Part shown: positions 19,623-30,201 of the stretch, in pieces | Layout of the letters: each line of letters begins with the position of its first letter | Position numbering within the stretch: position 1 is the first letter of the stretch | NCBI RefSeq assembly: GCF_000814845.2 | Contig: NZ_CP010431.2 | Span: 5,642,001 to 5,706,000, forward strand | Source: Pandoraea sputorum | GTDB taxonomy: Bacteria > Pseudomonadota > Gammaproteobacteria > Burkholderiales > Burkholderiaceae | Direction: 5' to 3' | Length of the DNA: 64,000 nt | The notes under the pieces: model-generated | Database searches by the model: none | What the model was told of the DNA's origin: nothing | Seen by the model: the letters and a program-made list of their open reading frames with translations, nothing else | Position numbers and translations under genes: made by a program

Positions 19623-20522
19623 TTACTCGGCGCGAATGCGCGCGAGGATACCGTCGAGTGCATCGAGGCTGCCGAACTCGATCGTCAGCTGACCGGCACC
19701 TTTGCGGCCGACCTTGATCTTGACGTTCGACGCGAGCAGATCCGAGAGCTCCTCTTCGAGGCGCGTCACATCGCGACCGCCCTCTTCTGCCGAGCGACGA
19801 CGAATACCGTCACCCTGCGGCTTGAGCGAGGCGTTCACGATGCGTTCCGTGTCGCGTACCGACAGACGCTTGTTCACCACCTGGTTGGCGAGCGTGATCT
19901 GCGTGGCCGCGTCGACGGCGAGCAGCGCGCGCGCGTGGCCCATGTCGAGATCGCCGGCGAGCAGCATCGTCTGCACGGGATTCGCGAGATTCAGCAGACG
20001 CAGCAGGTTCGACACTGCGCTGCGCGAACGTCCCAGCGATTCGGCGGCTTGCTCGTGCGTGTAATTGAATTCACCGAGCAGACGTTGAATGCCCTGCGCT
20101 TCTTCGAGCGGATTCAGATCTTCGCGTTGAATGTTCTCGATGAGCGCCATCGCAGCAGCGGCTTCATCGGGGACATCGCGCACCAGCACCGGCACTTCGG
20201 AGAGGCCAGCGAGGCGTGCAGCGCGAAACCGTCGCTCGCCCGCAATAATTTCGTACTTCTCACCATCGACACGACGCACCAGAATCGGCTGCATCAGACC
20301 TTGCGCGCGAATGCTCGCGGCGAGTTCCTGTAGCGCGCCTTCGTCCATGCGTGTACGCGGTTGATACTTGCCCGCCTGAAGGCGATCGAGCGCCATCACC
20401 GACGGCGCGCCTTCGGCAGTCGCCTCGGTCGCGCCGTTGTGGTTATCGGCGTGAGCGCCCAGCAGCGCTTCGAGGCCGCGGCCCAGGCCCTTTTTTTTCA
20501 GTGCGTTGGTCTTGGTCGCCAT
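19623..20522 (-). CDS. parB: chromosome-partitioning CTPase ParB
   Basis: A 299-residue ParB. The N-terminal basic KKKGLGRGLEALLG segment stimulates ParA. The CTP-binding motif is GERRFRAA near residue 96, preceded by LVRRVDGEKYEIIAGE and followed by ENIQREDLNPLEEAQ. The parS-reading helix-turn-helix is THEQAAESLGRSRSAVSNLLRLL, and the C-terminal dimerisation domain is present. It should bind the TGTTTCACGTGAAACA sites listed in this window and spread from them as a sliding clamp. It follows parA by 27 bases. Confidence 0.97.
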   Translation of the reverse strand: MATKTNALKKKGLGRGLEALLGAHADNHNGATEATAEGAPSVMALDRLQAGKYQPRTRMDEGALQELAASIRAQGLMQPILVRRVDGEKYEIIAGERRFRAARLAGLSEVPVLVRDVPDEAAAAMALIENIQREDLNPLEEAQGIQRLLGEFNYTHEQAAESLGRSRSAVSNLLRLLNLANPVQTMLLAGDLDMGHARALLAVDAATQITLANQVVNKRLSVRDTERIVNASLKPQGDGIRRRSAEEGGRDVTRLEEELSDLLASNVKIKVGRKGAGQLTIEFGSLDALDGILARIRAE

Positions 20523-20549: not shown

Positions 20550-21320
20550 TTACATAGTTTGAATGCGCGCGATCATTTCCGCGCCGAATTGCAGATACGC
20601 CTTCGCGCCGCGCGAAGCGGGATCGAAGACGACGCCCGGCATGCCGTAACTCGGCGCTTCGGCGAGTCGCACATTGCGCGGGATGATCGCGTTGAAAACC
20701 TTGTCGCCGAAGTGCTCCTTGAGCTGCTCCGAGACTTGTTGCTGAAGCGTGATACGCGGATCGAACATTACGCGCAAAAGGCCGATCACCTTCAGGTCGC
20801 GGTTCAGATTCGCGTGCACCTGCTTGATCGTGTTGACGAGATCGGACAACCCTTCGAGCGCGAAATACTCGCACTGCATCGGAATGATCACGCCGTGCGC
20901 GGCGCACAGGCCGTTCAACGTAAGCAGCGAGAGCGTCGGCGGGCAATCGATGAGGACAAAATCGTAGGCGTCGTCGACCTTCTCAAGCGCCTGCTTCAGA
21001 CGCGTATCGCGATTTTCGAGCGACACGAGCTCCACGTCGGCACCGGCCAGTTCGCGGTTCGCAGGCACCACATCGTAATTGCCGGACTCCGAACGCTGGC
21101 AGCTCGTGCTCACGTCGATGCCGTCGACCAGCACTTCATAGATGCTCGTTTCGAGCGCAGCTTTATCGATACCGCTGCCCATCGTCGCGTTGCCCTGAGG
21201 GTCCAGATCGACCAACAAGACACGCTGCCCGTGCGACGCCAGTCCGGCAGCGAGGTTCACCGTGGTGGTCGTCTTGCCGACGCCGCCCTTCTGATTGGCC
21301 ACGCAGAAAATTTTCGCCAT
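20550..21320 (-). CDS. parA: chromosome-partitioning ATPase ParA
   Basis: A 256-residue ParA/Soj ATPase. The deviant Walker A box KGGVGKTTTTVNLA starts near residue 11, with the signature lysine ahead of the P-loop. The Walker B region LIDCPPTLSLLTLN and the conserved IPMQCEYFALEGLSDL stretch follow. It moves ParB-parS complexes along the nucleoid. It is the first gene of parAB and lies 212 bases downstream of the lipocalin gene. Confidence 0.97.
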   Translation of the reverse strand: MAKIFCVANQKGGVGKTTTTVNLAAGLASHGQRVLLVDLDPQGNATMGSGIDKAALETSIYEVLVDGIDVSTSCQRSESGNYDVVPANRELAGADVELVSLENRDTRLKQALEKVDDAYDFVLIDCPPTLSLLTLNGLCAAHGVIIPMQCEYFALEGLSDLVNTIKQVHANLNRDLKVIGLLRVMFDPRITLQQQVSEQLKEHFGDKVFNAIIPRNVRLAEAPSYGMPGVVFDPASRGAKAYLQFGAEMIARIQTM

Positions 21321-21532: not shown

Positions 21533-22117
21533 TCAGGGTGCGCTGGCCTTCTGCGGCGTCAACACCAGTTTGTCGGTGTCGTAGCCCTGCTTGCGCAACT
21601 GGGCACGCATTTGATTCAGCGTGTCGTCGTCGATCTTCGGCGAGCGCGAGAGTATCCAGAGATACTCACGGCCAGGCTCTCCAACAGCGGCATACTGATA
21701 GTCACCGTCGAGCACGATAACCCAGTAGTTGGCCCAAAGCCAGGGAATCCAGCGCAACCAGTCCGGCGCGAACGTCACTTTGAAGCGTGCGGTGCCAGTG
21801 CCCTGCCCGTCGGTACGTGCCAGACCGGTATCGCTCGCCCAGGTGCCATCTTCCTTACGACACTTGTTGGTGACTTCGATCTTTCCGTCCGGACGCGCCA
21901 CGTACTCTGCGGTCACGTCCGACACACATTTTCGCTCGAAGAAATTCGGGTAGCGTGCTATTTCGTACCAGGTACCGACATAACGCGCCTTATCGATCTT
22001 TTGCACGGGACGCACGCGCGTCGTGAGCGATTCCTGCCCGGATTGCGCCCAGGCCACGGCAGCCACCACCGACAATCCGACCATCACGGCGCCGGCCCAA
22101 CGTGTTACACGGGTCAT
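21533..22117 (-). CDS. lipocalin family protein (Blc-like), periplasmic
   Basis: A 194-residue lipocalin. An N-terminal signal peptide ([18 protein letters not shown]) is followed by the family motif [17 protein letters not shown], and near the end by [14 protein letters not shown]. There is no lipobox cysteine, so unlike the classical Blc lipoprotein it is probably soluble in the periplasm. Such proteins bind lysophospholipids or other amphipathic molecules. Its start overlaps the rsmG stop by 4 bases (ATGA), so it is translated with rsmG. Confidence 0.9.
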
Positions 22118-22791
22118 GCCGTCACCTTCACGCGGAGCAAATGACGCTCGGCGTCGAGAAAAGGCACGTTCAGCGCCAGCCGTTCGACAAGCTCGTAGCC
22201 GTCAGGCAACGCCAGTTCGCTTTCGGCCGCCACGCCCTTCATCGCCCAGAAACTACCGCCAGGGGCCAGCAAGTTACGGCCAAGCGTAACGAAGTCGTTC
22301 AATTCCGCGAAGGCGCGCGAAACGATGGCGTCGAACGGTGCGGGCACTTCTTTGCCGACGACGAGCGACTCCACGCGGCCGGTCACGACCGTCAGATTGG
22401 TCAGTTTGAATGTGGCGCGGGCTTGCGTCAGAAAGGCAGTCTTCTTATGGACGATGTCGTTCACCGTCACCTCCCAGTCCGGACGCACGATCGCCAGCAC
22501 CACACCGGGCAGGCCACCGCCCGAACCGACGTCGAGCACGCGTGAAATCGGCTCACGATCCAGTCGCGGCAGAATCGAGAGCGAATCGAGCAAATGCTTG
22601 ACGACCATCTGTCGCGGATCGCGGATCGACGTCATTTGTAGCGAAGCATTCCACTTTGCCAGCAGCATCTGATAGTCGAGCAGGCGTGCCTGTTGCTCGG
22701 CACCGATCGTCAGACCGAGTTGTTCAATACCGTCAGCCAACAAAGCAGCGAGTTCGTTGCCGCCTGGTGCGGCAATACGCGGAGCAGTCAT
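22114..22791 (-). CDS. rsmG: 16S rRNA (guanine527-N7)-methyltransferase RsmG
   Basis: A 225-residue class I methyltransferase that modifies G527 of 16S rRNA. The SAM-binding motif is [18 protein letters not shown] near residue 80, and the conserved [16 protein letters not shown] lies near 150. The [10 protein letters not shown] element ahead of motif I is typical. It follows mnmG by 12 bases, the classical gidA-gidB pair. Confidence 0.96.
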
Positions 22792-22803: not shown

Positions 22804-24795
22804 TCAGGCAGCGTGCTGACCGCCGGAGTCGCCATCGGCGGCGACATTGGCGTCGGCAGTCGCTTCCCCCACCTCCCCTGAAGCACGACGGCGCCCGAGC
22901 CCTTTCTTCAGGTGGATCATCAACAGCGAGATCGCAGCGGGCGTCACACCGGAGATACGAGAGGCTTGCCCCAGCGTTTCGGGCCGTTGAGCGTTCAGCT
23001 TCTGGCGCACCTCGATCGACAGCCCACGAACGTCGTTGTAATCGATGCTGGCGGGCAGCACCGTGTTCTCGTTCGCTTCCTTGCGCACGATCTCATCGGC
23101 CTGACGGTCGATGTAGCCCTGATACTTGACCGCAATCTCAATCTGCTCGCGGATCTGATTCGCTTGCAGCGCATCATCGGACAGTGCAGTCTCAGGCGCG
23201 AGACGACCGCCCTGCACTGCCATCAGCGCGTCGTACCCGACTTCCGGGCGACGGAGCAGGTCGGCCAGCGAATACTCGTGGTCGATGGCTTTACCGAGCA
23301 ACGGCACCGCGTCTTCCGCCGGGAACGTCTTCGGATTCACCCACGTCGTCTTAAGACGTTCTGTTTCACGTGAAACAGCATCGCGCTTGCGGCAGAACGC
23401 TTCCCAACGAATATCGTCGACAACGCCCAATTCACGGCCTACTTCCGTCATGCGCATATCCGCGTTGTCTTCACGCAGCGACAGGCGATATTCCGCGCGG
23501 CTGGTGAACATACGATACGGCTCGGACACCCCGCGGGTGATCAGGTCGTCGACCAACACCCCGAGGTAAGCCTGATCGCGACGCGGGCACCAGGCTTCGC
23601 GGCCCTGCACTTGCAGTGCGGCGTTGATACCGGCGAGCAGCCCCTGTGCTGCGGCTTCTTCGTAGCCGGTCGTACCGTTGATCTGTCCTGCGAAGAACAG
23701 TCCCGAAATCACGCGGGTTTCCAGCGAACTGCGCAGTCCGCGCGGATCGAAGTAGTCGTACTCGATGGCGTAGCCGGGACGCAGAATATAGGCGTTCTCC
23801 ATCCCCTTCATCGAGCGGACGAGTTCCAGCTGCACATCGAAAGGCAGGCTGGTGGAGATACCGTTCGGGTAATACTCGTTGGTCGTCAGACCTTCCGGTT
23901 CGAGATAGATCTGATGGGACGTCTTATCGGCGAAGCGATGGATCTTATCTTCGATGGACGGGCAATAGCGCGGCCCGACGCCTTCGATGACGCCCGTGTA
24001 CATCGGCGAACGGTCGAGGCCGCCTCGGATGATGTCGTGCGTCCGTTCGTTGGTATGCGTGACCCAGCACGGCACTTGGCGCGGGTGCTGGTCGGGGCGT
24101 CCGAGGAACGAGAAAACCGGCACCGGATCCAGATCACCCGGCTGTTCTTCGAGGACGGAGAAATCGATAGAACGCCCGTCGATACGCGGGGGCGTACCCG
24201 TCTTCAACCGACCTTGCGGCAACTTCAACTCTTTCAGACGTGCGGAAAGGCTGATGGCAGCGGGATCACCGGCACGGCCACCGACATAGTTGTTCAGCCC
24301 CACGTGAATCTTGCCGTCGAGGAAAGTCCCGGCGGTGAGCACTACAGCGCGAGCGCGGAAGCGCAATCCGACCTGCGTGATCGCCCCGACAACGCGGTCG
24401 CCTTCGACAATAAGATCTTCCACGGCTTGTTGGAAGAGCCATAAATTAGGCTGATTCTCGAGGCGATGGCGGATGGCTTGCTTATAAAGAAGCCGGTCGG
24501 CTTGAGCGCGGGTCGCACGGACAGCGGGTCCCTTGGACGAATTCAGAATACGAAACTGAATCCCGCCCTCGTCGGTGGCAGCGGCCATGGCGCCGCCGAG
24601 TGCATCCACTTCCTTGACGAGGTGGCCTTTGCCGATCCCGCCGATGGAGGGATTGCAGCTCATCTGGCCGAGCGTCTCGATATTGTGGGTGAGCAGAAGT
24701 GTCTTACAGCCCATGCGGGCCGAGGCGAGCGCAGCCTCGGTACCGGCATGGCCGCCACCCACCACGATCACGTCAAACTCGGTCGGATAAAGCAT
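22804..24795 (-). CDS. mnmG: tRNA uridine-5-carboxymethylaminomethyl modification enzyme MnmG
   Basis: A 663-residue MnmG (GidA) that with MnmE modifies the wobble uridine of several tRNAs. FAD binding is shown by [21 protein letters not shown] at the N-terminus, and the family signature [21 protein letters not shown] follows. The C-terminal MnmE-contact region is intact, then a variable Ala/Gly-rich tail. Odd point: the codons for AVSRET near residue 475 spell a perfect parS site (23362-23377). Two more parS-like sites lie 90-148 bases upstream of the start. Confidence 0.97.
23362..23377. other. parS site inside mnmG
   Basis: A perfect 16-bp palindrome TGTTTCACGTGAAACA, the universal ParB site, inside the mnmG coding sequence. 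It is about 1.5 kb from the main intergenic array. Confidence 0.9.
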
Positions 24796-24884
24796 CGCAA
24801 TATTGCCGCTGACGGCAAACTCTCTGGATTCGGTAATTGCGGAATTATAGCGGTATTGCGATGCATCATTTGTAACTGCACTCG

Positions 24885-24900
24885 TGTTTCACGTGAAACG
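24885..24900. other. parS-like site (15 of 16 bases), upstream of mnmG
   Basis: TGTTTCACGTGAAACG differs from the consensus only in the last base. It lies 90 bases before the mnmG start, close enough for bound ParB to affect the mnmG promoter. Confidence 0.85.
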
Positions 24901-24927
24901 TTAGGGCAAAGTGGTGGTTTTGCTGGA

Positions 24928-24943
24928 TGTTTCACGTGGAACC
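24928..24943. other. degenerate parS-like site
   Basis: TGTTTCACGTGGAACC has two changes from the consensus, one of them inside the 14-bp core, so binding may be weak. It lies 27 bases beyond the site at 24885. Confidence 0.55.
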
Positions 24944-25100
24944 CTGAGGTCTTTTGATGTTTGGACGGGGGTATTGATCCTGTTTCAGAAGGCGTCTTGA
25001 ACTGCGCTTGCATCCATTTTTGCCGTAAACATCGGAAAGTCTCCCCACGTTCAGACGAGAACCCTTCGATACGAGCACTTCGTCGCACCCGCAGACGTCC

Positions 25101-25188
25101 GGGCAGTAGAGATTGGGGGCGCTCGACTGTGCCCCACCTGAAAGTCGCTTCGCCTGAGTTCCCTCGAATCCCCACCACTCAATTGCCC
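25101..25188 (-). repeat. hairpin element copy a (decayed)
   Basis: The first copy of the roughly 90-nt element. The conserved loop is present but the arms (about 25106-25124 and 25156-25175) differ in length and several pairs. A perfect parS site follows 32 bases to the right. Confidence 0.75.
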
Positions 25189-25220
25189 ACGGCCAGTCGC
25201 CCGGGCGATGCTTGCGATAC

Positions 25221-25236
25221 TGTTTCACGTGAAACA
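25221..25236. other. parS site, perfect
   Basis: TGTTTCACGTGAAACA, 32 bases right of hairpin copy a. It starts the first long tandem repeat unit. Confidence 0.93.
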
Positions 25237-25374
25237 TCGAAGTCGGCCCGTGGACTTGCGAAGACGGTTCACCGCTCCGATGGACGTCCCACCTTTGCCC
25301 CACCCTCTCTCGAATGCCACGTCGCGGCCTATTAAAACCACCCGGTGTCACCATCGTGCCGTTCTCTCAACCAT

Positions 25375-25465
25375 CCGGGCAGTGGGGATCGGAAGCACTC
25401 GGCTGTGCTCCACTTGAAAGTCGCTTCGCCTGAGTGCCCCCGATCCCCACCATTCAATTGCCCGG
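25375..25465 (-). repeat. hairpin element copy b
   Basis: Outer ends CCGGGCA and TGCCCGG, then 19-base arms (25382-25400 and 25432-25450) around a conserved 31-base loop. Read on the minus strand, the arms pair throughout, with two G-U wobbles. parS follows 30 bases to the right. Confidence 0.88.
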
Positions 25466-25495
25466 GGCCAGCCACCCGAGCGATGCTCGCGACAC

Positions 25496-25511
25496 TGTTT
25501 CACGTGAAACA
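25496..25511. other. parS site, perfect
   Basis: TGTTTCACGTGAAACA, 30 bases from hairpin copy b and 8 bases after a small CGAGC/GCTCG hairpin. Confidence 0.93.
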
Positions 25512-25640
25512 TCAAGGCCGGTACGTGGACTGGCTCACGGTTCCGATCGACTTCCCATCTCCGGCCTGCCCTCTCTCGAATGCCACGTCGCGGCCTATTA
25601 AAACCACCCGATGCCACCATCGTGCCGTTCTCTCAACCAT

Positions 25641-25731
25641 CCGGGCAGTGGGGATCGGAAGCACTCGGCTGTGCTCCACTTGAAAGTCGCTTCGCCTGAG
25701 CGCCCCCGATCCCCACCATTCAATTGCCCGG
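25641..25731 (-). repeat. hairpin element copy c
   Basis: Same architecture as copy b. On the minus strand all arm differences are G-U wobbles. parS follows 30 bases to the right. Confidence 0.88.
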
Positions 25732-25761
25732 GGCCAGCCACCCGAGCGATGCTCGCGACAC

Positions 25762-25777
25762 TGTTTCACGTGAAACA
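25762..25777. other. parS site, perfect
   Basis: TGTTTCACGTGAAACA, 266 bases from the previous site. Confidence 0.93.
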
Positions 25778-25906
25778 TCGAGGTCGGTACGTGGACTGGC
25801 TCACGGTTCCGATGGACTTCCCATCTCCGGCCCACCCTCTCTCGAATGCCACGTCACGGCCTATTAAAACCACCCGATGCCACCATCGTGCCGTTCTCTC
25901 AACCAT

Positions 25907-25997
25907 CCGGGCAGTGGGGATCGGAGGCTCTCGGCTGTGCTCCACTTGAAAGTCGCTTCGCCTGAGTGCCCCCGATCCCCACCATTCAATTGCCCGG
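25907..25997 (-). repeat. hairpin element copy d
   Basis: Same architecture, with one true mismatch in the inner arm (GGCTCTC instead of GGCACTC). parS follows 30 bases to the right. Confidence 0.88.
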
Positions 25998-26027
25998 GGC
26001 CAGCCACCCGAGCGATGCTCGCGACAC

Positions 26028-26043
26028 TGTTTCACGTGAAACA
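26028..26043. other. parS site, perfect
   Basis: TGTTTCACGTGAAACA, 266 bases from the previous site. Confidence 0.93.
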
Positions 26044-26180
26044 TCGAAACCGGTTCGTGGACTTGCGAAGACGATTCACCGCTCCGATAGACTTCCCATT
26101 CCGGCCCACCGTCTCTCGAATGTCACGTCGCGCCCTGTTAAAACCACCCGATGCCACCATCGTGCCGTTCTCTCAACCAT

Positions 26181-26271
26181 CCGGGCAGTGGAGTTCGGAG
26201 GCACTCGGCTGTGCTCCACTTGAAAGTCGCTTCGCCAGAGTGCCCCCGATCCCCACCACTCGATTGCCCGG
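26181..26271 (-). repeat. hairpin element copy e
   Basis: Same architecture, with one true mismatch and two wobbles in the arms. A parS-like site follows 29 bases to the right. Confidence 0.88.
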
Positions 26272-26300
26272 GGCAGCCCGAACGTGAAATTGGCGATGTT

Positions 26301-26316
26301 GGTTTCACGTGAAACG
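26301..26316. other. parS-like site, intact 14-bp core
   Basis: GGTTTCACGTGAAACG: the GTTTCACGTGAAAC core is perfect and only the two outer bases differ from the consensus. Confidence 0.88.
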
Positions 26317-26512
26317 TTAAGGTATTGGTCACCCGCATATCGAAGCCCCCCGGTTCCCTTAATTACCGAATCTCCAACCCTTGGGCGACTCCACCCTCCG
26401 TTTGAGGTGCAGCAGCACTTCGACCCCAACGCTTCTAGGTGCAGCCCATCAGGAAATGCGCGACCGCCAAGGGGACGGACACGGGGACCGACAGCGGACA
26501 AGATTGCGGGAA

Positions 26513-26528
26513 TGTTTCACGTGAAACG
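26513..26528. other. parS-like site, 15 of 16 bases
   Basis: TGTTTCACGTGAAACG, not accompanied by a hairpin element. It stands in unique sequence between the direct and inverted cassettes. Confidence 0.87.
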
Positions 26529-26773
26529 TCGGGAGACGTCATCGCACGGATCGCGGGGGGCACACGTTTTTCCCCGGAGGTCGACGGTCCTTGCGCAACC
26601 CCACCCGGCTCCACCCCACGAACAGCGAAGCCGACTACGAGAATCTTCCAACGTTATGCCGAACGCGCACCTCTTCCCTTTCCTGCTTCCAAGCCGGGAG
26701 GGTTAGCTGGCACATGACATCCTCCCAGTGGCGTTCAAACCAGACAACGGGCGTCCCCCATCCAAAGCAACGC

Positions 26774-26789
26774 TGTTTCACGTGAAACT
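26774..26789. other. parS-like site, 15 of 16 bases, of the inverted cassette
   Basis: TGTTTCACGTGAAACT. Here the hairpin lies to the right (copy f, 28 bases away), so the whole parS-hairpin cassette is inverted relative to copies a-e. Confidence 0.87.
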
Positions 26790-26817
26790 AATTTCGCACG
26801 AACACTTGGGGTGAAAT

Positions 26818-26907
26818 CGGGCAATTGAGGGGTGGGGATTGGGGGCGCTCTGGCGAAGCGACTTTCAGGTGGAGCACAGCCGAGTGCCTCCAATCCCCAC
26901 TGCCCGG
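26818..26907 (+). repeat. hairpin element copy f (inverted)
   Basis: Arms at 26832-26850 and 26882-26900 pair fully with two G-U wobbles on the plus strand. Compared with copies b-e, one C-G pair has become T-A on both arms. The flank to the right matches the conserved AAAACCACCC block in reverse. Confidence 0.88.
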
Positions 26908-27044
26908 AAGTTAGGAAGAACAGTGCCGCGGTAGCACCCGATGGTTTTCAAAAAGGCATGCATCCCACGTGTAGCGAACCAACTCCACGAGTCACCCCAC
27001 TTCGCCACATTTAGCCGAACAGTCACGAACCGCGACGAAAGCTT

Positions 27045-27134
27045 CGGAGATTTGAGAGGTGGGGATCGACGGTGCTCTGGCGAAGCGACTTTCAAGTGGA
27101 GCACAGCCGAGTACCGTCGATCCCCACTGCCCGG
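27045..27134 (+). repeat. hairpin element copy g (inverted, covarying arms)
   Basis: Arms at 27059-27077 and 27109-27127 pair with 18 Watson-Crick pairs and one wobble, although the inner five positions differ from all other copies. No parS site is adjacent on the expected side. Confidence 0.88.
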
Positions 27135-27191
27135 AAGTGAGGGAGAACGGCACCGTGATAGCGGGATGTGGTGTTAAGAAAAGCCTCCCCT

Positions 27192-27207
27192 CGCTCCACG
27201 TGAAACA
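27192..27207. other. degenerate parS-like half-intact site
   Basis: The right half CACGTGAAACA is intact while the left half has three changes. It is a probable relic or weak ParB site between hairpin g and the DnaA boxes. Confidence 0.5.
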
Positions 27208-27287
27208 AAGAAACGCAGCAACGAAAACAGCCAACCAAACCCGAAAGCCAACACCGCCACCATCTTCGCAGCGACCATCCACCTGCG

Positions 27288-27459
27288 TTATCCACATCCG
27301 AGCCAAGAACACAAAAATCCGCCGCAGGAATTTGCTTTTCTGTGGATAACCTCGACAACGAATTCCACAAGAATTTCGAGAAAATCTCGCAACCCCTTAT
27401 TGCGGCAGTGCGCCATAGATTTGAGTTACTCACACATATCCACAAGCAACTGTGAATAA
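27288..27459. other. probable replication origin (oriC): DnaA-box cluster
   Basis: Perfect DnaA boxes TTATCCACA lie at 27288-27296 (plus) and 27341-27349 (minus). TTATTCACA lies at 27451-27459 (minus). One-mismatch versions lie at 27436-27444 (ATATCCACA) and 27426-27434 (TTACTCACA). The surrounding sequence is AT-richer than its flanks, as expected for an unwinding element. The parS array and parAB lie next to it, as is normal at chromosomal origins. No dnaA gene is in the window. Confidence 0.75.
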
Positions 27460-27593
27460 GTGACTTACCATACTTTGCCGCGAAGCCCCGGCGTCGCCCC
27501 AAATAATTGGGGACGGATAGCTCTATCGAACGACCGTTCAGATTGCATGTCCGGTTAAAGCGACCACCCCATCGCCCGCACCCAGAAACGAAA

Positions 27594-27618
27594 AAGGCCC
27601 GCCAAACCGGCGGGCCTT
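27594..27618 (-). terminator. rho-independent terminator of the first liv operon
   Basis: A perfect 10-bp stem (AAGGCCCGCC and complement) with a 5-base loop, followed on the minus strand by TTTTTCGTTTC. It lies about 40 bases after the livF stop. Confidence 0.88.
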
Positions 27619-27658
27619 CTCAACCTGTGTCGAACTACGTACCGACAGTCAACGACCG

Positions 27659-28405
27659 TCAGGCAGCCTTCTTAGCCAGCCCCAGATACGTCTCAATCAC
27701 CTTGGGATTGGTAGCCAGCTCCTGCGCCGGCCCTTCGAGGGCAAGCTCGCCCGTCTCGATCACGTAGGCATAGTCGGCAACCTGCAACGCCGCGCGTGCG
27801 TTCTGCTCGATCAGCAGCGTGGCAACGCCCGTCTTACGCAAGTCATTGATGATGTGGAAGATTTCCTTCACGATCAGCGGTGCCAGACCCAGGCTAGGCT
27901 CGTCCAGCATCAGCAACTGCGGCTTAGCCATCAACGCACGGCCCACCGCAAGCATCTGACGCTCCCCGCCCGACAGCGTCCCCGCCTGCTGCACACGACG
28001 CTCCTTCAGACGCGGGAACAGCTCATAGACCACATCCATCTGATCGAGGAAGTTCTTCTCCCCCGCCTTCTTGCGACGGTAAGCGCCGAGCAGCAGATTG
28101 TCCTCAACGGTCATCGTCGAGAACAGCTCACGCTTCTCCGGCACCAGACACATGCCGCGCGACACACGGGCTTCGATCGTCAGCGCCGACATCTCCTGAC
28201 CAAGATAAGCCACGCTGCCCTTGCTCGACCCGTTGTGCGGCAGCGCGCCCATGATCGCGTTGAGCATCGACGACTTGCCCGCGCCGTTCGGACCGATCAC
28301 GGTGACGATCTGCCCCGCCCCGACGCGCAGATGCGCACCATGCACCGCCTCGACTTTGCCGTATGCGACGGCGAGGTCCTTGACCTCCAGAATTGCGTCG
28401 GCCAT
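27659..28405 (-). CDS. livF: branched-chain amino-acid type ABC transporter ATPase LivF (system 1)
   Basis: A 248-residue ATPase. Walker A is [11 protein letters not shown], the signature is LSGGERQMLAVGRAL and Walker B is LLMLDEPSLGLAP, which together with TLLIEQNARAALQVADYAYVIETG is typical of LivF. I chose the ATG at 28405, which overlaps the upstream stop by one base (TGATG) and has GGAGGAG before it. The longer open frame upstream is out-of-frame reading of the neighbouring gene. It powers import together with the fused permease-ATPase next to it. Confidence 0.94.
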   Translation of the reverse strand: MADAILEVKDLAVAYGKVEAVHGAHLRVGAGQIVTVIGPNGAGKSSMLNAIMGALPHNGSSKGSVAYLGQEMSALTIEARVSRGMCLVPEKRELFSTMTVEDNLLLGAYRRKKAGEKNFLDQMDVVYELFPRLKERRVQQAGTLSGGERQMLAVGRALMAKPQLLMLDEPSLGLAPLIVKEIFHIINDLRKTGVATLLIEQNARAALQVADYAYVIETGELALEGPAQELATNPKVIETYLGLAKKAA

Positions 28406-30201
28406 CACTCCACTCCTCCCAGGTACGCTTCGAGCACCGCCGGGTTCTTCTGCACGTCTTCCGGCAGCCCCTCGGCGATCTTGGTGCCGAACTCCATCAC
28501 CACCAGGTGATCGGTCAGATTCATCACGAAGTCCATGTCGTGCTCGACCAGCAACACGCTCATGCCCTCGTCCTTGAGCTTCTTGAGCAGATCGCCCAGC
28601 GCCTGCTTTTCCTTGTAGCGCAAGCCTGCGGCCGGTTCGTCGAGCAACAGCAGCGTCGGATCGCACGCCAGTGCACGCGCGATTTCCAGAATACGTTGCT
28701 GACCCAGCGCCAGACTGCCCGCCTCGTCATACATGTGCGCCCCAAGGCCCACACGCTCAATCTGCAGCTTCGCTTCATGCAGCAGCATCGCTTCTTCGTG
28801 ACGATCCAGACGCAGCACACTCGACCACACACCACCCTGCGGACGACGACGCAGACCGTTCTTGTCGCGCAGATACGCGCCGATAGCGACGTTCTCAAGC
28901 ACGCTCATATGCGGCATCAGACGCACGTGCTGGAAGGTCCGGCCGATACCGCGCTTGACGATCTCACGCGAGGGCAACCGGTCGATGCGCTCGCCCAGGA
29001 ACGAAATCTCACCGCGCGTTGCCTGCAACACACCGGTCACCAGGTTGAACGTCGTCGACTTGCCCGCACCGTTCGGACCGATCAGGCCGACGATCTCGCC
29101 CGCCTTCACTTCGAACGACACGTCGTTCACCGCAACCAGTCCGCCGAACTCCTTGCGTGCCTTCTCAAGCTTGAGCACCACCTCGCCCACCGCTGGCTTG
29201 GGACGATGTCCCAACGGCTCAGCCTGCTCAGGCGCTTTCGCGACACGTCGCGCCGGGAAGATCTTCCCGAAGAACGGCCACACGCCATCGCGCGCATATT
29301 GCAGCAACAACACGAGCAAGATGCCGAAAACGATGGTTTCGAAGTTGCCGTTCGCGCCCAGCAGCACCGGCAGAATGTTCTGCAAGTAGTCCTTGAGTAC
29401 CGTCAGAATCGCAGCCCCCAGCACCGCACCCCACACGTGGGATACGCCACCGACCACCGCCATGAACAGATACTCGATGCCGTGGTTCAGGTTGAACGGC
29501 GTCGGGTTCACGGCACGCTGCAAGTGCGCGTACAGCCAGCCCGAGATCGCAGCGAGCACCGCCGCATAGACGAACACGACAACCTTCATCCATGCCGTGT
29601 TCACGCCCATCGCCTCGGCCATCACGCCGCCACCCTTGAGCGCGCGAATCGCACGGCCCGGGCGCGAATCCAGCAGGTTCTTGATCGACACCACCGCCAG
29701 CACCACCACGATCCAGATCAGGTAGTACATCTGACGCCCGCTCGCCAGCTCCAGGCCAAACAGGTTGATCGTCGGAATGTCGTTCAGGCCGTCGTACTTG
29801 CCCAGGAACTCCAGGTTGCCGAACAGGTAATACAGCGCCAGACCCCACGCGATCGTGCCCAGCGGCAGGAAGTGGCCCGACAGGCGCATCGTGATCGCAC
29901 CGATGATCAGCGCCGCACCCGCCGTAATCGCCACGCCAACGATCAGACCGAGCCACGGCGATGCGCCGTAAGCCGTGGTCAGATACGCCGTCGCATAAGC
30001 GCCCAGACCGACGAACGCCGCCTGTCCGAACGAGGTCATGCCCGCCACGCCCGTAAGCAACACGAGACCGATGGCGACAATGCTGTACAAGCCGATGTAG
30101 TTAAGCAGCGTCACCCAGTATTCAGGCAAACGCACCGGCGCTGGCAGTACCGGCAACACCGCCAGCAGCACCAGGAAAATCAGGAAGTATTTGTTTTTCA
30201 T
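28405..30201 (-). CDS. fused ABC permease-ATPase, LivM-LivG type (system 1)
   Basis: A 598-residue fusion. Residues 1 to about 315 are a LivM permease with eight or more helices ([25 protein letters not shown] is the classic LivM stretch). After a linker, residues from about 345 form a complete LivG ATPase with Walker [14 protein letters not shown], signature [15 protein letters not shown] and Walker [12 protein letters not shown]. Usually these are two genes. It overlaps livF by one base and follows livH by 18 bases. The fusion should fix the 1:1 ratio of permease to ATPase. Confidence 0.93.

Follow-up and report, generated by a model that had tools for sequence, protein, structure and literature searches.

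What is a long hairpin doing beside one parS site after another on a bacterial chromosome, on the same side and at almost the same distance? The question arises from a 64,000-nucleotide stretch of Pandoraea sputorum DNA (hereafter the window; positions 5642001-5706000 of one 5,742,997-base contig, the 5.74 Mb Pandoraea chromosome), in which an earlier note, made from the letters alone, had described six cassettes of parS plus hairpin, one of them inverted, beside the origin.

An array of parS-hairpin cassettes upstream of mnmG

The parS consensus used here is a 16-bp palindrome. Between mnmG and a livF-like gene the window carries seven hairpin copies of 88 nt each, of which a-e are on the minus strand and f and g on the plus strand. 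All six cassettes described before are present, spanning 25100-26906, and a seventh hairpin, g, had been missed. A parS-like 16-mer lies 29-32 nt to the 5′ side of six of the seven hairpins (a-f); with hairpin ends set by the covariance model, the gaps from a to f are 32, 32, 32, 32, 31 and 29 nt. The earlier note gave 32, 30, 30, 30, 29 and 28 nt, of which the value for a agrees and the others differ because the hairpin edge had been drawn elsewhere. It rightly described f as an inverted copy that has its parS on the opposite side. Cassette units b-e form a tandem repeat of 266, 266 and 274 bp. The features, in window coordinates, are as follows.

19623..20522, minus strand, parB (Pfam ParB_N, HTH_ParB, ParB_C)
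20550..21320, minus strand, parA (Pfam AAA_31, CbiA)
22114..22791, minus strand, rsmG (gidB; Pfam GidB)
22804..24795, minus strand, mnmG (gidA; Pfam GIDA)
24885..24900, parS-like site on the mnmG side, 1 mismatch, without hairpin
24928..24943, parS-like site on the mnmG side, 2 mismatches
25100..25188, minus strand, hairpin a, the most diverged copy (R1 84.5 bits, R2 68.3 bits)
25221..25236, perfect parS of cassette a, gap 32 nt
25376..25463, minus strand, hairpin b (R1 108.8 bits)
25496..25511, perfect parS of cassette b, gap 32 nt
25642..25729, minus strand, hairpin c (R1 108.4 bits)
25762..25777, perfect parS of cassette c, gap 32 nt
25908..25995, minus strand, hairpin d (R1 108.7 bits)
26028..26043, perfect parS of cassette d, gap 32 nt
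26182..26269, minus strand, hairpin e (R1 105.2 bits)
26301..26316, parS-like site of cassette e, 2 mismatches, gap 31 nt
26513..26528, parS-like site, 1 mismatch, without hairpin
26774..26789, parS-like site of inverted cassette f, 1 mismatch, gap 29 nt
26819..26906, plus strand, hairpin f of the inverted cassette (R1 109.5 bits)
27046..27133, plus strand, hairpin g, the seventh copy, without parS on its 5′ side (R1 107.2 bits)
27192..27207, degenerate parS-like site, 3 mismatches, 3′ of hairpin g
27288..27459, three DnaA-box-like 9-mers from a pattern scan (27288, 27341, 27451)
27659-28420, minus strand, livF-like ABC gene

The window contains 12 parS matches with at most three mismatches against 0.28 expected from shuffles. 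Nine 16-mers with at most two mismatches lie between mnmG and the livF-like gene; the whole genome has ten such sites, every one near this array, including one inside mnmG. The site within the mnmG coding sequence (23362-23377) is a perfect parS, and no hairpin accompanies it. With parA and parB nearby and 16-bp parS palindromes in a cluster, the locus has the make-up of a ParABS centromere. The degenerate parS-like site 3′ of the last plus-strand hairpin has a counterpart in several relatives.

The array is located upstream of the genes mnmG, rsmG, parA and parB, a run that reads away from it. Because rsmG, parA and parB follow downstream of mnmG, the minus-strand cassettes are aimed at that run. 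A promoter scan of 24700-27700 found no sigma-70-like promoter against 1.0 expected, and terminator-like sites numbered 9 against 3.8 expected. Three of these nine, located 3′ of hairpins c, d and e, are copies of a weak hairpin, CGATG-GTGG-CATCG, with TTTT.

With respect to the origin, the GC skew has negative values to the left and to the right of the array and switches sign near 5.73 Mb. Genome position 1 holds a dnaA-like gene, and three further DnaA-box-like sites are grouped at 5.722 Mb. The array therefore lies in the origin part of the chromosome, but a position directly beside the origin is not established, as the skew switch and dnaA are about 60-74 kb away.

The hairpin is conserved as a fold, on one strand

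We characterized the hairpin with two covariance models, R1, built from the seven window copies and two from elsewhere in the genome, and R2, a wider model from 106 Pandoraea copies (102 distinct rows). Hairpin b folds better than its dinucleotide shuffles, with z of -5.1 on the plus strand and -6.4 on the minus strand. Across the 106 rows, standard pairs occupy 97.2% of 2615 stem cells, 19 of the 26 pairs have changes on both sides, and double-change cells number 345 against 87 in shuffles; sliding the partner columns by 1-3 positions drops pairing to 36-43%. The stand-alone copies behave alike (94.6% paired, double changes in 22 of 26 pairs), 8 of the 56 rows in this set being antisense duplicates. 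The stems, about 23 bp long, vary between loci, and the hairpin top around GAGCGACTTT..GTGGAGCGCAG is, judged by eye, the least variable part.

The wobble pairs are strikingly one-sided. Read on the sense strand, the 96 array rows contain 301 G-U against 18 A-C, and the 48 stand-alone rows 118 G-U against 2 A-C, counts that come from related copies picked by a model scoring G-U above A-C. Such one-sidedness makes a single strand, as RNA or ssDNA, look like what is selected. Taken together, the covariation and the wobbles point to a folding-conserved, strand-specific structure.

Some 27-42 nt beyond the hairpin on its 3′ side, a conserved block like GCGGGATGTGGTGTT (for example L020:2464-2478) recurs in many copies, both stand-alone and in arrays, so that the full element probably measures about 130-145 nt. 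Against Rfam 15 the best score was 25.6 bits for a cut-off of 80, with no family at its curated score; permissive matches were of microRNA type or otherwise far below cut-off.

Hairpins also stand alone, at conserved loci, and are still spreading

According to the earlier note, frequent hairpins elsewhere in the genome without parS would speak against the cassette as it conceived it, and this is what we found. In this genome R1 identifies at least 13 sense copies, of which seven are in the array and six elsewhere (462668, 1264642, 1405554, 3380124, 3781642 and 4831847), none of the six near parS. The figure is a floor from 150 of 875 R1 candidates scored, and R2 gives 14 matches in the same genome. 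Relatives, too, have conserved stand-alone loci: 33 of 35 stand-alone stretches fetched from several species fall into seven groups with common flanking DNA, which on the strength of those flanks are conserved loci. One example lies downstream of an ftsI-like gene (L021, L063-L066, L153, L159, L169). Among the genes flanking nine stand-alone loci, inspection by eye revealed no common theme. Since hairpins without parS occur both in this genome and in its relatives, the hairpin is best regarded as an independent repeat that came to adjoin parS, in line with one option of the earlier note, a mobile element that captured parS.

New copies are still arising. In genome G013 the copy at 5128858 differs from the genome's own locus-C copy at 478528 in only 4 of 89 bases, and G013 has a further copy at 4629777 over which the 25 other genomes that have the same flank do not align. 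The locus found only in G013 carries about 250 bp more than G016, and comparison of the two showed no clear target duplication there.

Some stand-alone copies come in pairs. Next to the copy at 1264642 lies a weaker, inverted one (L034:1369-1457). L034:1369-1592 holds two divergently pointing hairpins, 43 nt apart, between two convergent ORFs; this pair is kept between species (orthologs L067, L068, L154, L160 and L173). A tandem pair in G012, 111 bp from start to start (L161:1586-1784), has no parS in the flanks shown. A polarity relative to the replication fork was rejected, as stand-alone copies and arrays alike occur in both orientations.

The cassette recurs in Pandoraea with a nearly constant 5′ distance

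We mapped the mnmG-side region of all 32 Pandoraea genomes (38 stretches), which yielded 121 hairpins and 209 parS-like sites, copy numbers being lower bounds because several assemblies break within the array. At least one cassette is present in 22 of the 32 genomes, with one to seven per genome mapped, and so the earlier expectation of the same cassette in relatives, with nearly the same spacing and side, is confirmed. Where the full upstream sequence is available, parS lies 24-34 nt 5′ of 85 of 118 hairpins and at that distance 3′ of none. The cassette distance is found in 76 of 83 minus-oriented array hairpins and in only 9 of 35 plus-oriented ones.

Of the 86 gaps between parS and hairpin that are under 60 nt, 40 measure 29 nt, the commonest length. 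In the 14 genomes with this gap, identity is 0.935 over parS, 0.28 over the 15 spacer bases beside it (0.264 by composition), 0.41 over the 14 spacer bases beside the hairpin and 0.26 at 51-90 nt 3′ of the hairpin. In 74 of 79 cases, 81-157 nt separate a minus-oriented hairpin from the next parS on its 3′ side. Thus, on these alignments, the 5′ distance in the main body of copies is tighter than either the letters or the 3′ interval. When any parS within 400 nt of a minus-oriented hairpin is counted, the standard deviation is 43.8 on the 5′ side (n=81) and 42.8 on the 3′ side (n=79), an equality that stems from a few copies without a near parS. As the copies are related, part of the regularity in spacing is due to common ancestry and to homogenisation; a length constraint on the spacer is likely, though not proven, from the sequence comparison.

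The genus also contains other arrangements. Four genomes (G007, G010, G011 and G027) have parS clusters without a comparable hairpin, and the hairpin is therefore not needed for a parS cluster. In four more (G003, G023, G025 and G029), the 1.5-2.1 kb taken contain a single parS and no hairpin. G008 has two hairpins, neither beside a recognisable parS, and a decayed parS-like string upstream of one of them. G015 is without the cassette hairpin family and has a different long-stem hairpin with another loop, in two mutually inverted copies near parS (L139:215-310 and 1025-1120) that are identical over the parts compared.

Capture probably came before amplification

A tree of an independent flank, covering 25 genomes with midpoint rooting only (G010 and G017 absent), unites the parS-only G007, G011 and G027 in one group (100/100), separate from the 21 species with cassettes and from G008, which itself falls inside the cassette group. 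The parS-only species, G010 included, each have a single stand-alone hairpin, which lies at the ftsI locus. From the tree, these ftsI-locus hairpins and the remnants in G008, the order of events is likely to have been a stand-alone hairpin first, then capture beside parS, then amplification. Within the G000 group, the array copies viewed, in both orientations, have a GAA/ACA inner loop, and stand-alone copies of the same genome have other forms (for example GGA/GCA at 4831847), a contrast that fits homogenisation within the genome.

The best reading is accordingly of a dispersed, single-strand-folding repeat that was captured next to parS in an ancestral Pandoraea and amplified with it as a unit, the spacing being kept. 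The composite goes far back within the genus and is uncommonly regular; for its anatomy and this history together we consider the support strong.

Beyond Pandoraea only probable distant relatives of the hairpin are found

R1 matched 26 of 398 genomes of the family, all among the 32 Pandoraea; the other 366 genomes, from 24 genera, gave none under strict filters with about 11 candidates scored per genome. Under the same filters and candidate number, R2 gave one weak match outside Pandoraea in about 399 genomes of the order. This outsider led to a family of long-stem elements in other Burkholderiales with the loop GCAGCGAARTNAAGGAGGAG...GGGGGACA, for which we know of no name. These elements share with the Pandoraea hairpin a near-perfect variable stem, often with a GTGC/GTAC step, and the motifs GCAGCGA and CGGAG around the loop; they differ from it in an extra variable inner stem. 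R2 scores them at up to 35.8 bits, and because part of that score comes from pairing alone, their descent from a common element is probable rather than sure. The loop pattern with at most one mismatch occurs in 15 of 399 genomes of the order, not always in a hairpin, and the parS core was absent from all 33 Burkholderiales loci of about 3 kb. The repeated element, with variable outer and inner stems, occurs in L207, L208, L209 and most of L213-L239; L207 had no Rfam match at cut-off.

Viral contigs gave 15 stretches with the loop pattern, of which, judged by eye, one had a long matching stem and 14 did not. The exception, L244:1578-1604, is a hairpin with this type of loop on a contig whose ORFs look phage-like by eye. 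A search of a genome contig collection for the composite pattern returned 32 stretches, 16 from Pandoraea and 16 with one match each in other taxa, the latter probably due to chance. The window unit had no match among plasmids.

What the composite might do

To explain the array we propose, tentatively and at somewhat less than an even chance, a composite, tandemly amplified centromere unit whose sense-strand RNA is coupled to ParB loading. Hairpin and parS would have been joined in the ancestor of the cassette clade and multiplied together by gene conversion and tandem duplication; the multiplied parS sites might by themselves already favour such amplification. The sense strand would act as RNA, with ssDNA as second choice. 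In this arrangement parS would cover the 5′ flank of the hairpin, where a promoter or transcript start would lie, ParB loading could be coupled to making or extending the structured transcript, and the hairpin could mark or limit one side of each loading site. The transcript described for BRE, a comparable repeat (see below), speaks for this proposal. Against it count the lack of a sigma-70-like promoter in 24700-27700, the parS clusters that do without the hairpin, the G008 hairpins with no recognisable parS next to them, and the low share of plus-oriented hairpins (9 of 35) at the cassette distance. A fuller version we regard as unlikely: a centromere of repeated units, in each of which a structured, strand-specific RNA (or ssDNA) keeps a set distance and side relative to the site where ParB loads, and takes part in the loading or spreading of ParB or in recruiting condensin.

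That ParB loading is coupled to a structured strand, RNA in the first place, is what we infer, and hitchhiking is a serious rival, which we rate as quite possible without favouring it: a REP- or BRE-like repeat chanced beside parS, the pair was amplified for the extra parS sites, and the hairpin has no role in segregation. In its favour, the hairpin stands alone at conserved loci, still spreads (G013, 5128858 and 4629777) and is absent from the parS clusters of G007, G010, G011 and G027. What hitchhiking leaves unaccounted for is the gap of 24-34 nt, with its mode at 29, kept in 22 genomes although the spacer letters are near random, together with the constant side of parS and the pairing that arrays and stand-alone sites alike retain.

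A second alternative, which we think improbable, is that the sense strand folds when single-stranded as DNA, on the lagging strand, at fork restart or in strand transfer, and serves near parS as a protein or primase site or as a roadblock. An excess of G-U (G-T in DNA) on one strand and stems of about 23 bp would suit such an element as well, but its copies share no polarity, both orientations occurring at stand-alone sites and in arrays. A double-stranded cruciform or dyad protein site, or a quasipalindrome template-switching artefact that repairs both arms without selection, would yield near-perfect inverted repeats with both arms changed, yet is highly improbable, since either treats G-T and A-C alike against the observed 301 to 18 (array) and 118 to 2 (stand-alone), and the hairpin top looks conserved between species and loci.

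Should the proposed coupling to ParB loading be functional, Pandoraea would offer, in 22 genomes, a natural repeated system for the effects of a transcript or fold on ParB loading and one-sided spreading, processes otherwise studied with isolated parS sites, and sister species whose parS clusters lack hairpins would be ready-made controls. Even hitchhiking alone would show that a dispersed structured repeat is able to multiply a centromere.

Comparison with known systems

The Beta-proteobacterial repeat element (BRE) is a described repeat that resembles the hairpin. In the available text of PMC3110155 it is a GC-rich, mostly intergenic element of about 90 bp in Bordetella, Polaromonas, Delftia and others, variable in copy number, tandem in places and not oriented with the fork, and one locus in Bordetella gives a transcript of about 70 nt, bprJ. 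The Pandoraea hairpin is similar to the element described there in being about 90 bp, intergenic and present in single or tandem copies; that text makes no link to parS, and its Table 2 does not include Pandoraea. Compared by description rather than by letters, the Pandoraea hairpin may share a superfamily with BRE, and its probable distant relative in other Burkholderiales may be BRE itself.

REP/BIME elements with their RAYT transposases are alike in being intergenic palindromes that at times form inverted pairs, as at locus E (L034). REP palindromes in E. coli are 14-40 nt with highly similar copies, according to the available text of PMC12306157, whereas the Pandoraea hairpin, with at least 13 copies in this genome, is 88 nt long, with a conserved top and a stem that varies. 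A short palindrome in highly similar copies is thus not what we found, the stems differing between loci. A RAYT link was rejected: the genome has one PF01797 (Y1_Tnp) gene, at 5335647, and the best R2 score in the surrounding 3.3 kb was 14.2 bits.

Searches of the literature, subscription papers lying outside their scope, found no paper with the ten loop strings and, in the text available, none that joins parS with such a hairpin or treats Pandoraea ParB; the main text of two Burkholderiales parS papers (PMC5450999, PMC4948915) mentions neither a hairpin nor Pandoraea. The earlier note's statement that it knew of no such element therefore stands, as far as our searches went, for the composite of parS and hairpin, and less clearly for the hairpin itself, which is perhaps akin to BRE (PMC3110155, in the text available). 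Chromosomal ParABS clusters, such as those of Burkholderia cenocepacia and Pseudomonas aeruginosa, have parA-parB, 16-bp parS and sites clustered near parAB, as here; what sets the Pandoraea array apart is that most of its hairpins keep one distance from a parS and one side of it.
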